DNA of 64,000 nt from the NCBI RefSeq assembly GCF_003797775.2, contig NZ_CP060725.1:1302001-1366000 (forward strand). Direction: 5' to 3'. Every line of letters starts with the position of its first letter. Position 1 is the stretch's first letter. The stretch comes from Sphingopyxis sp. OPL5. Its GTDB lineage: Bacteria; Pseudomonadota; Alphaproteobacteria; Sphingomonadales; Sphingomonadaceae. Shown in pieces: positions 30,266-62,843 of the stretch. Below the pieces are notes generated by a model. It was given only the letters and a program-made list of their open reading frames with translations. It did not search any database and was not told the origin of the DNA. The translations under genes and the position numbers were made by a program.

Positions 30266-30272
30266 AGATAGA

Positions 30273-30410
30273 GATCCTCCCTGCGGCGCAGCCGTGGGGA
30301 GGGGGACCGCCGCGAAGCGGTGGTGGAGGGGCCGGCGACGTCGCGCCATGGCCCCTCCGTCAGCGGCTGCGCCGCTGCCACCTCCCCATCGCTTCGCGAC
30401 AGGGAGGATT
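30273..30410. repeat. Palindromic element A, gene-less relative of the DUF559 unit
   Basis: The left arm starts GATCCTCCC and continues through GGGGAGGGGGACC and GGTGGTGGAGGGG. The right arm runs CCCCTCCGTCAGC through CCACCTCCCC to GGGAGGATT. Each arm folds into two hairpins, and the whole is an inverted repeat around about 15-20 bases. It shares the left arm nearly base for base with 41638-41784 and with the left end of the DUF559 unit at 61574. It holds no coding capacity. Confidence 0.88.
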
Positions 30411-41541: not shown

Positions 41542-41637
41542 GGTGCCAAGATAGGGAGTGCGGGCACGAATGGAAGGGGTTGTGGTGACGATGGATCGCG
41601 GCGTTTTGTCGGCTTTGGTGTGAGTGGCGACCCTGAA

Positions 41638-41784
41638 GATCCTCCCCATCGCGAAGCGTTGGGGAGGGGGACCGCCGCGAAGCGGTGGTGGAGGGGTCGG
41701 TACGGTGCGTCATGGCGAGAGGTTTGAACCCCTCCGTCAGCCCTGCGGGCTGCCACCTCCCCATCGCTTCGCGTGGGGAGGATC
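41638..41784. repeat. Palindromic element B, gene-less relative of the DUF559 unit
   Basis: Left arm GATCCTCCCC...GCGAAGC...GGGGAGGGGGACCGC...GGTGGTGGAGGGGTC; middle of about 30 bases; right arm CCCCTCCGTCAGCC...GGCTGCCACCTCCCC...GGGGAGGATC. The left arm differs from element A and from the DUF559 unit mainly in the hairpin loops, where paired changes keep the stems. It lies between erpA and the M23 peptidase, with no coding capacity. Confidence 0.9.
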
Positions 41785-41815
41785 TTGCGTCCAACCGAGG
41801 CATACCGCCCAAATG

Positions 41816-60412: not shown

Positions 60413-61147
60413 ATGAGCATCCATGTCGGAATCGGGGGCTGGACCTTCGAACCGTGGCGCGGCCCCTTCTACCCCGCCGGCCTCGCACAGAAACGCGAGC
60501 TCGAATATGCCGGCCAGCATCTGACCGGCATCGAGATCAACGGCACCTATTATGGCAGCCAGAAGCCCGAGACATTCGCGAGCTGGGCGGCCTCGGTCCC
60601 CGACGGCTTCAAGTTCAGCGTCAAGGCCTCGCGCTTCACCACCAACCGCAAGATACTGGCCGAAGGCGCCGGATCGATCGAGAAATTCCTGACGCAGGGG
60701 CTGACGCGGCTCGGCGACCGTCTCGGCCCGATCCACTGGCAGTTCATGGCAACCAAGAAGTTCGACCGCGACGATTTCGCCGGCTTCCTCGACCTGCTGC
60801 CCGACAGCCAGGACGGCCTCCCCCTCCGTCACGCGATCGAGGTCCGACACGAAAGCTTCGGCGACCCTGCCTTCATCGCCATGCTGCGCGAGCGCAACAT
60901 GGCGGTCGTCTATGCCGACAGCGACGAATTCCCCTGCATCGACGAGCAGACCGCCGACTTCACCTACGCCCGCCTGCAACGCAGCCAGGAGGATGTCGAA
61001 ACCGGCTATGACGCGGCGGCGCTAGGCAAATGGGCTGTCCAGGCGAAGGACTGGACCAAGGGCGACCGCGACGTCTTCCTCTTCTTCATCTCGGGCGCGA
61101 AGGTCCGCAATCCCGCGGCCGCACAGGCGCTGATCGCGCGGCTATGA
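60413..61147 (+). CDS. DUF72 family protein
   Basis: 244 residues of the DUF72 TIM-barrel fold: HVGIGGWTFEPWRGPFYP, EINGTYYGSQKPETFASWAA, FKFSVKASRFTTN, GPIHWQFMATKKF and AIEVRHESFGD. The biochemical function is unknown. Its stop overlaps the ATG of the DUF3052 gene (ATGA at 61144-61147). Confidence 0.92.
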   Translation: MSIHVGIGGWTFEPWRGPFYPAGLAQKRELEYAGQHLTGIEINGTYYGSQKPETFASWAASVPDGFKFSVKASRFTTNRKILAEGAGSIEKFLTQGLTRLGDRLGPIHWQFMATKKFDRDDFAGFLDLLPDSQDGLPLRHAIEVRHESFGDPAFIAMLRERNMAVVYADSDEFPCIDEQTADFTYARLQRSQEDVETGYDAAALGKWAVQAKDWTKGDRDVFLFFISGAKVRNPAAAQALIARL

Positions 61148-61545
61148 GTGCCGGCTATTCGGGCACCTCGCTCGCGAAGAAATTGTCGCTGAAGGACGGG
61201 ATGACCGCGTGGTTCCACACGATGCCCGCCAGCGTGCGCGAAGAGATCGGCGATGTCGCACTCGACGAACGCGCCGCGCCCGAGGCGGGCCTGCAGGCCG
61301 TGCATATCTTCACCACCGAGCGCGCCGAACTCGAGCGCCTGCTCACCGAGCTGCGCACGCTGATCGACCCCACGGGTTTCGTCTGGGTGAGTTGGCCCAA
61401 GAAGGCCGCGAAAGTCCCGACCGACATCACCGAGGATGTGATCCGCGAGATTTGCCTGCCGATGGGCTGGGTCGATGTGAAGGTCTGCGCCGTCGATACG
61501 GTGTGGTCGGGGCTGAAGCTGATGGTGCGGAAAAAGCTGCGCTGA
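61144..61545 (+). CDS. DUF3052 family protein
   Basis: 133 residues. GYSGTSLAKKLSLKDGM, VSWPKKAAKVPTDITEDVIREI, and WVDVKVCAVDTVWSGLKLMVRK are family features. Function unknown. Overlap with DUF72 upstream implies coupled synthesis. Confidence 0.9.
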   Translation: MSAGYSGTSLAKKLSLKDGMTAWFHTMPASVREEIGDVALDERAAPEAGLQAVHIFTTERAELERLLTELRTLIDPTGFVWVSWPKKAAKVPTDITEDVIREICLPMGWVDVKVCAVDTVWSGLKLMVRKKLR

Positions 61546-61573
61546 TCGACAAAAGCGACGGTCGGGCTAAATA

Positions 61574-62054
61574 GATCCTCCCCTTCGCGAAGCGTTGGGG
61601 AGGGGGACCGCGCCCGCAGGGCGTGGTGGAGGGGTCGCGCGTGCCGCCAAGCAACAACGCCTACAGGAACGCGAAACGGTTGCGCCGCAAGATGTCGCTC
61701 CCCGAAGTGCTGCTCTGGCAAATCCTCAGAAAGCAGCCCGGCTATATCAAATTCAGGCGCCAGCACCCGATCGGCCGATATGTGCTGGACTTCTATGTGC
61801 TGGAACTAAAGCTCGCGATCGAGATCGACGGCATCGCCCACGACATGGGCGACCGACCCGACCGCGACGAGGCGCGCGACCAGTGGCTTGAATCGCAAGG
61901 AGTGCGGATGCTGTGTATCGCCGCGAAGGACGTCCTCGCCAACCCCGTCGCTGTCGCAGACAGCATCGTGCGGCTCTATACCGAGAGGTAAAACCCCTCC
62001 ACCACTCGCTACGCGAGCGGTCCCCCTCCCCATGGCTTCGCCAAGGGGAGGATC
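61574..62054. mobile_element. Putative miniature element: inverted palindromic arms enclosing a DUF559 gene
   Basis: The left arm (61574-61640) begins GATCCTCCCC and contains hairpin 1 (GCGAAGC loop; GGGGAGG close) and hairpin 2 (GGGACCGC... to GGTGGTGGAGGGGTC). The right arm (about 61993-62054) is its inverted counterpart: ACCCCTCCACCAC...GGTCCCCCTCCCC...GGGGAGGATC. The DUF559 gene fills the middle with no spare sequence. Gene-less relatives are at 30273-30410 and 41638-41784. No target-site duplication is evident. Mobility is inferred, not shown. Confidence 0.65.
61641..61991 (+). CDS. DUF559 protein, Vsr-fold endonuclease-like
   Basis: 116 residues if it begins with GTG at 61641, where the GGAGGGG of the repeat arm lies 6 bases upstream; earlier in-frame GTG codons at 61623 and 61626 sit inside the arm. 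ARRLRRKMS-like start (AKRLRRKMSLPEVLLWQILR), FRRQHPIGRYVLDFYV, LAIEIDGIAHD, and a C-terminal RMLCIAAKDVLANPVAVADSI. Asp50, Glu61 and Asp63 sit where Vsr-like nucleases hold catalytic metal ligands. It is wholly enclosed by inverted repeat arms, and its stop TAA touches the right arm. Confidence 0.88.
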   Translation: MPPSNNAYRNAKRLRRKMSLPEVLLWQILRKQPGYIKFRRQHPIGRYVLDFYVLELKLAIEIDGIAHDMGDRPDRDEARDQWLESQGVRMLCIAAKDVLANPVAVADSIVRLYTER

Positions 62055-62060
62055 TTCAGG

Positions 62061-62843
62061 TCAAGCCGCAACCGCCTGCTGCGACGCCAGGAAGTTATAC
62101 GGGTCGATGCCGCGGCTGCGGTATGCCCGGTGCGCTTCCTTATAAAGCGTCGGTTCCCCGATCCCCAACCGCGCGCGTGCGGCGTCGAGCGGTTCGGCGA
62201 GCAGCGAGCGGATATCCTGCTCGATGATCGCCTTCGACGCCTTGCCGTGACGCTGGCCCTGGCGGATCGCGCTCATCACCGGCGCGTCGCCCTTGACGCT
62301 GCGCTTCAGTTCGTAACCGCCGGCATAGGCGATGAAGAAATTGCCGTAATTGCCCGTCTGGCCATAGGTGAAGCCGAGCACGCACTGCTCGCCGAGTGCG
62401 TCGCGGCCATAGCCGGTCAGGATGTGGAACAGGTCGTGCGTATCGCGCAGGCGGTTGGCATACCATTGCACCTGGTCGTCGAACTTCGGGCGCCCCATCT
62501 TGTCGGCCTCGGCGACCAGGCCGGCCGCCGACAGGCCTTCGCGGCGCATGAAGGTGACATAGGCGTGGCCCACCGTGCCTTCGGGCAGTGCGTCGATCCA
62601 GCCATGATCGTCGAGTAGATCGGGCAGATAGGGCTCGCTCGCCATCAGCCGCTGGCCGAAATCGCTTTCGACGAAGGCGCGCGCATCATCCATGAAGCCC
62701 TTGCGCGGAAGATTCTCGAAGATGTGGAAGACCTGCTCGGTGTCTTCCTTGTCCTTGATCAGCTTGCGAAAGTGCGACAGCGCCTTGAACGGGCGGAACT
62801 TAGCGGGCTGGCGGGCGGGATGGGAGAAGATGGTCGGGGTCAT
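62061..62843 (-). CDS. Coq4-family ubiquinone biosynthesis protein
   Basis: 260 residues. THDLFHILTGYGRDALGE is the Coq4 metal/structural motif (HDxxH...E), and the surrounding LGFTYGQTGN and helical folds match. In eukaryotes Coq4 organises the CoQ complex; in bacteria it is thought to support ubiquinone synthesis. A palindrome overlaps its likely -35 box (62902). The right arm of the DUF559 element ends 6 bases from its stop. Confidence 0.88.
   Translation of the reverse strand: MTPTIFSHPARQPAKFRPFKALSHFRKLIKDKEDTEQVFHIFENLPRKGFMDDARAFVESDFGQRLMASEPYLPDLLDDHGWIDALPEGTVGHAYVTFMRREGLSAAGLVAEADKMGRPKFDDQVQWYANRLRDTHDLFHILTGYGRDALGEQCVLGFTYGQTGNYGNFFIAYAGGYELKRSVKGDAPVMSAIRQGQRHGKASKAIIEQDIRSLLAEPLDAARARLGIGEPTLYKEAHRAYRSRGIDPYNFLASQQAVAA

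Follow-up and report, generated by a model that had tools for sequence, protein, structure and literature searches.

A DUF559 nuclease gene in Sphingopyxis sp. OPL5 is enclosed by two inverted palindromic arms, and gene and arms form one unit. The gene lies on contig NZ_CP060725.1, in a stretch of 64,000 nucleotides (nt; positions 1,302,001 to 1,366,000) that is referred to here as the window and within which all coordinates are counted. We favour, with a probability of roughly 55 %, the interpretation that this arrangement of arm, DUF559 and inverted arm is one unit of a widespread and old family, organized like repetitive extragenic palindromic (REP) sequences, their doublets forming hairpins (REPINs) and the REP-associated tyrosine transposases (RAYTs), but with an unrelated Vsr-like nuclease. 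The arm type is inherited along the nuclease clade and past movement of the units is strongly supported; we infer that binding and cutting of the arms by the nuclease drive their copying. A REP-like logic with an unrelated nuclease had been proposed from a sequence-only reading of the window, and the unit and its association with arms proved real, as did the empty sites and gene-less derivatives, all of them more widespread than the window showed.

The unit in the window and its nuclease

The arms are 63-nt inverted repeats, 87 % complementary, each with two hairpins according to fold prediction (Table 1). The left arm comprises an outer hairpin (61577-61603), an inner hairpin (61607-61627) and the G-rich motifs GGGGACC and GGTGGAGGGG, and in the right arm the inner hairpin (62001-62021) precedes the outer one (62025-62051). 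The arms are REP-like in that a G-rich motif comes after a C/G-rich hairpin, and the arm type found here, designated type A, has a second hairpin in addition. The gene had been described as filling the space between inverted, hairpin-rich arms, which was confirmed, with the stop codon (61989-61991) ending one base ahead of the right arm. The GTG at 61641 (116 aa) is the preferred start because nine orthologous units have it in common, GTG 61623 (122 aa) being possible. DUF559 was the only Pfam family above cut-off between the arms, with no known transposase gene, and the arms had no match in Rfam up to an E value of 1. The core GGGGAGGGGGACCG is present in four exact copies in the window, all within arms of this kind; with up to two mismatches allowed, shuffled sequence held a mean of 1.04 copies and reached four in 2 of 100 shuffles. 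Gene-less inverted pairs are the non-autonomous form of the unit, and the two in the window each fold as a single cruciform-like structure. These had been reported as the same arms without the gene, which holds for only one arm of each pair: it is of the GGGGACC..GGTGG type, whereas its partner belongs to a sister type (GGTGGCAG..CTGACGG), and the gene unit has two GGGGACC-type arms.

The product matched PF04480 with 92.1 bits (curated cut-off 20.6; E value 2.6e-26), a family still entered in Pfam as a 'protein of unknown function', and displays both the Vsr-like fold and the conserved acidic active site that mark DUF559 members. Its fold resembles I-Bth0305I, Vsr, Hjc and TnsA, the catalytic domain of I-Bth0305I being the closest after 3hrl (profile E value 2.8e-5). 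The Vsr-like fold and the residues Asp50, Glu61 and Asp63 named at the outset were upheld, the numbering being that of the GTG 61641 start. They correspond to D56, E67 and D69 in the 122-aa numbering (start 61623), in which D56, E67, D69, H73 and D82 are invariant across an alignment of 60 DUF559 proteins. RAYT enzymes have a Y1/HuH fold; the RAYT-type transposase domain Y1_Tnp (PF01797) was absent from the Pfam matches of the gene and from this genome. We take YcjD to be a DUF559 protein. According to PMC1189080, YcjD is related to Vsr, and EDxHD enzymes are described in PMC3943268. The nearest named relatives of the protein came from Sphingopyxis and unnamed Sphingomonadaceae.

Table 1. Features of the DUF559 unit, its gene-less counterparts and its neighbours in the window. 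The neighbours are presumed to be DUF3052 (left) and coq4 (right), labels carried over from the sequence-only reading.
Feature	Position	Strand	Basis and remarks
Left arm, type A	61573..61635	+	Inverted repeat; single-stranded DNA fold z -3.4; same type at gene-less copies
DUF559 nuclease gene	61641..61991	+	PF04480; start common to nine units; invariant active-site residues; fold
Right arm, type A, inverted copy of left arm	61993..62055	-	Fold z -4.8
Gene-less inverted arm pair, one ACC-type and one CAG-type arm	30272..30409	.	blastn of arms in window; fold z -6.9
Gene-less inverted arm pair, one ACC-type and one CAG-type arm	41637..41786	.	blastn of arms in window; fold z -9.4
Left neighbour gene	61144..61545	+	Open frame; locus marker; convergent with coq4
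Right neighbour gene	62061..62843	-	Open frame; orthologous-site marker, present in 60/60 genomes

Arms and nuclease genes across genomes

This genome (4.68 Mb, one contig) contains four DUF559 genes, all four of them between inverted palindromic arms and each with an arm family of its own, and the type A whole-arm pattern occurs in 53 copies (reversed control 0). DUF559 was present in 52 of 60 genomes sampled from the genus, at 0 to 11 matches per genome. About half of the 170 matches were taken (L005-L033 the best-scoring ones, L034-L093 part of the listed matches, from genomes up to G033), yielding 84 distinct units, a count that includes L054 twice as the halves of one gene with a stop. 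The arm score was that of the highest-scoring inverted alignment of one 260-nt flank with the other, and it was compared with 2064 control positions in the same loci, for which the 99th percentile was 15 and the maximum 32, so that about 1 % of control positions lay above the threshold. Scores exceeded 15 in 74 of 83 scorable units and 20 in 65 of 83. A further 80 named loci (L124-L203) were picked by their likeness to the type A clade and were nearly all from sphingomonads (Sphingopyxis, Sphingomonas, Novosphingobium, Erythrobacter and others); 73 of the 79 that could be scored lay above the 99th percentile of 1464 controls. Arms are present at most of the DUF559 homologues sampled. Beyond the family, the 99th percentile of 935 controls was exceeded by 30 of 46 loci from other Alphaproteobacteria and by 12 of 22 from other Pseudomonadota outside the class (L204-L232 best matches, L233-L272 one chosen match per genome). 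Twelve loci were drawn from 35 plasmid records with a DUF559 match, and in six the score was above every one of the locus's controls (one from a Sphingomonas plasmid, two from Deinococcus, one from Picosynechococcus and two from Pseudanabaena).

Motif typing of the 84 genus units identified the same arm type on both sides in 64, two overlapping motif classes in six, a motif on one side only in 11 and none in three. Mapped onto the nuclease tree, arm type required 12 changes compared with a shuffled mean of 52.9, and 0 of 200 shuffles was as low. Compensating changes preserve the arm structure: across 44 distinct type A inner stems, pairing holds at 212 of 219 positions, compared with 169 on average and at most 184 when right halves were exchanged 500 times. 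The 18-nt core of another arm type, C, was found in 13 of the 60 genomes in exactly two inverted copies each, and all 26 exact copies flank DUF559. The outer hairpin and G motif of type C are 98 % identical across species in 11 units whose genes are 73 % identical; this stretch was delimited through its match with the opposite arm (wider blocks including the arms gave 86 % and 89 %, a single ill-placed fixed window 73 %). In nine genomes for which all type A arms were listed (146), the four convergent pairs spaced 150-3000 nt apart all enclose DUF559, eight further convergent pairs, 35-49 nt apart, form doublets without the gene, and one of six other gene-sized neighbour pairs, tandem or divergent, encloses DUF559. 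The exact type A pattern misses about half of the arms, because these nine genomes hold ten type A genes.

Per genome, type A arms ranged from 0 to 182 and type B arms from 0 to 44. Their number follows DUF559 genes generally, with a moderate preference for the cognate clade. In tests that ignore descent, the median number of A arms was 29 in the 29 genomes with an A gene and 10 in the 31 without (p 3e-4; by B gene, p 0.014), and that of B arms was 15.5 with and 6 without a B gene (30 and 30 genomes; p 1.4e-5; by A gene, p 0.0096). The eight DUF559-free genomes held 0, 0, 0, 1, 1, 1, 7 and 11 A arms and 0, 0, 0, 0, 1, 1, 4 and 10 B arms, compared with medians of 22 and 13.5 in DUF559-carrying genomes (p 1e-4 for both). 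Before correction for descent, arm number is thus not independent of DUF559, as had been expected earlier, but the cognate preference is only moderate, and A and B arm numbers rise jointly (rho 0.61), which counts against a strict pairing of gene and arm.

Units at coq4, in the pnt operon and in PglX-like proteins

The junction beside coq4 was compared in the 45 closest of the 60 genomes, 15 with a diverged coq4 being excluded and states being assigned by eye. It holds the full unit in nine species, a gene-less doublet in 12, a single hairpin in five and neither in 19, the locus thus being empty of arms in 19 of 45 species. Eight of these 19 sites contain other sequence of 431-1268 nt, and the junction is not strictly equivalent throughout. 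Mapped onto the coq4 tree, the nine full sites take eight changes, much as after shuffling (8.3), and the four states taken jointly require 19 (shuffled 22.6; 10 of 200 shuffles as low), a slight clustering. Sister species differ: G038 carries the full unit and G059 a single hairpin (coq4 94.7 % identical), and G033 carries the full unit and G017 none (95.5 %). An internal stop is present in two of the nine genes at occupied sites. Over 36 pairs, and at this locus only, the gene has a mean identity of 79 % compared with 88 % for coq4, a divergence that does not suggest recent transfer. These data fit units that, within the genus, are of long standing, stay in place and are frequently lost, most of them now being inherited vertically like RAYTs rather than actively hopping; long residence with repeated loss is favoured over recent hopping because clade members keep one neighbourhood across species. 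At arm-less coq4 sites (L275-L277, L279, L280, L283 and others) another hairpin, CCCCGGC..GCCGGGG, is common and in some cases doubled; it may represent a second family of repeats or simply terminators.

In 21 of the 80 named loci DUF559 lies between pntAA and pntAB, with paired arms in 19 of these 21. In a plasmid example the right arm terminates in the likely ribosome-binding site of pntAB. Among species, the distance from pntAB to its neighbours varies by considerably more than one hundred bases (L184, L187, L193), and additional gene-less pairs may account for this.

Joint movement of gene and arms is indicated most strongly by their occurrence at different positions of homologous proteins. 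On a Pseudanabaena galeata plasmid, arm, DUF559 and arm are found in frame within a PglX-like methylase (Eco57I and N6_Mtase domains) beside brxC; residues 1-321 and 351-1026 of a DUF559-free homologue (P0017) match residues 1-324 and 507-1229 of the P. galeata protein. DUF559 was carried by 23 of 120 listed PglX-like homologues, a share that is not a rate, the search words having been drawn from a stretch including the insert. Palindrome-derived peptides flank DUF559 on both sides in 18 of 21 scorable proteins, on one side in two and on neither in one; the same signature, which was written after the flanks had been seen, occurs in 36 of 1548 windows of DUF559-free proteins. Among the inserts that could be placed on the host protein, those near positions 320-370 and 1020-1060 (P0017 numbering) have peptides on both sides. 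P0010, which is without DUF559, has a gene-less peptide at the first insert site, and seven of 73 DUF559-free proteins with that site carry one. The in-frame insert occupies two host positions, perhaps a third, and is absent from close homologues. The mobility originally proposed gains support from these inserts, but not as active hopping within the genus, where shared neighbourhoods and gene divergence speak otherwise. Further gene-less palindrome peptides lie in frame in the same PglX-like protein of P. galeata plasmid pPg_02 (L325:1373-5296), including its C-terminal part. On cyanobacterial plasmids (L324, L325, L329) DUF559 stands beside BREX-type genes (brxC, PglX, DUF1156), in two cases without paired arms.

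Mechanism, alternative explanations and known systems

We propose that the Vsr/EDxHD-type nuclease would recognize its cognate arm, most probably in extruded form (hairpin or cruciform) or single-stranded during replication, and would nick or cut there. Repair might then copy the arm pair elsewhere, with or without the gene, or alternatively delete the interior so that one hairpin remains. Such loss, suggested by the occurrence of the single-hairpin state, could use the two outer hairpins, their palindromic nature making them direct repeats too; host slippage alone could suffice. It is conceivable, at slightly less than even odds, that DUF559/Vsr-like nucleases constitute an ancient, multi-phylum class of transposable elements of their own, in which one restriction-fold nuclease, without a known transposase, would move itself and its non-autonomous palindrome pairs via hairpin or cruciform DNA. 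A nuclease acting on the arms would merit a class to itself; the logic as such is that of REPINs and RAYTs.

Several results weigh against a REPIN/RAYT-like family. Within the genus, 79 of 84 units fall into 13 neighbourhoods shared across species (a clustering of flanks that may join a few loci via arm sequence), and target-site duplication is unreadable at coq4, where arm-less sites carry other hairpins or genes. Beyond the family, 16 of 46 class loci and 10 of 22 phylum loci did not rise above control, and neither did six of the 12 plasmid-record loci (E. coli, Azospirillum, Photobacterium, Methylobacterium and two from Synechocystis), the E. coli and Azospirillum flanks having REP-like hairpins on one side only, as judged by eye. 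The best predictor of A arm number was other DUF559 genes (t 5.8 versus 2.6 for the A gene), and a descent-corrected version of the copy-number tests had four usable pairs at most. Two genomes, G041 and G046, hold 98 and 71 type A arms with no type A nuclease gene found, for which recent gene loss, the enzyme of another clade or a diverged gene are suggested. Dispersed non-autonomous copies, as envisaged in the sequence-only reading, exist for types A and B but not for the type C core, which had no dispersed copy in the 60 genomes when exact copies were sought. In PglX-like proteins, the third position near 530 (two proteins) has a peptide on one side only, and P0032 has no palindrome peptide beside its DUF559.

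The palindrome could instead be the target of a free-standing EDxHD homing endonuclease whose gene inserted into it, splitting and protecting its own site; the gene would then spread by cutting unoccupied palindromes and recombination, and the palindromes by other means. The nearness of the fold to the catalytic domain of the homing endonuclease I-Bth0305I is in keeping with this, as is the occurrence of gene-less pair and full unit at the same site in different species. Homing is nevertheless unlikely: dispersed arms are fewer without DUF559, as homing target sites need not be, exact copies of the type C core are present only as gene-bound pairs, and at the occupied coq4 sites the gene is less alike than coq4, not more. 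The nuclease might also be a domesticated guardian or regulator that trims cruciforms, or represses or removes palindromes, with another host or phage activity spreading both; this seems distinctly improbable, as more DUF559 accompanies more arms rather than fewer and the boxing of the gene by its cognate arm would be left unexplained.

If the arms were immobile cis-acting expression elements (terminators, RNA stabilizers or insulators) of the nuclease and other genes, the conservation of the type C arm at 98 % identity would be accommodated, along with the other strong hairpin often present between the convergent genes at arm-less coq4 sites. The in-frame PglX inserts and pnt-operon units are not gene-end terminators, however, and the arms lack an Rfam match, making this explanation very unlikely. 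A hotspot or chance gathering of palindromes in intergenic space where DUF559 happens to be is barely credible. Type A and B arms are indeed repetitive in most genus genomes, but 74 of 83 units exceed a threshold passed by about 1 % of control positions, arm type tracks the nuclease clade, and all 26 exact type C cores flank the gene.

The favoured REP-like family shares with REPs, REPINs and RAYTs (TnpA_REP) a small nuclease gene boxed by its own inverted palindromes and dispersed non-autonomous pairs, as well as vertical inheritance and, here before correction for descent and with moderate type specificity, more repeats where the gene is present, the RAYT features being those given in PMC8049555. 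It differs in its Vsr-like restriction fold, in the lack of a Y1_Tnp domain in the gene and elsewhere in this genome, and in the presence of multiple paralogues in a genome, every one with a separate arm family. As in insertion sequences and miniature inverted-repeat transposable elements (MITEs), terminal inverted repeats are present, but no known transposase gene lies inside. In contrast to EDxHD homing endonucleases (I-Bth0305I, 3r3p), the DUF559 protein (116-122 aa) has no extended DNA-binding part, its gene lies between palindromes, and the unit also occurs in gene-less form. Vsr endonuclease and Caulobacter VsrA are likewise among the closest known systems. Rickettsia palindromic elements and other bacterial MITEs are short palindromic inserts too, also found in frame in proteins (PMC10969869), whereas here a nuclease gene between the palindromes supplies a candidate autonomous partner. 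Among titles and abstracts, with most subscription papers outside the search, we found no report tying DUF559, COG2852, Vsr or YcjD to REP-like repeats, and the available portion of PMC3733652, on tagged REPs, makes no mention of Vsr, Caulobacter or sphingomonads.

To our knowledge, the dispersed palindromes of RAYT-free genomes have no known maker. A nuclease gene with its cognate palindrome on both sides, at loci in at least three phyla, represents a candidate enzyme. If the proposal is correct, DUF559, so far a family of unknown function, would acquire one; as a class of transposable elements of its own, it would be the missing autonomous partner of many G/C-rich palindromes in Alphaproteobacteria, other Pseudomonadota, Deinococcota and Cyanobacteriota and of palindromic elements that enter proteins in frame. 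The PSPxxGEGG..GRGAGGEG low-complexity peptides beside many DUF559 domains would then be translated arms.

Some individual loci displayed further features. In E. coli record NZ_CP141089.1 (L320) a REP-like hairpin lies downstream of DUF559 and none upstream, as if one arm had been lost. Three draft contigs (L059, L063, L078) stop 42-172 bases past the DUF559 domain, near an arm; arm repeats may break draft assemblies and hide units. On two Deinococcus plasmids (L322, 2471-2809; L326, 2456-2800) an arm-flanked DUF559 gene occupies the opposite strand within the hpa (4-hydroxyphenylacetate) gene cluster.
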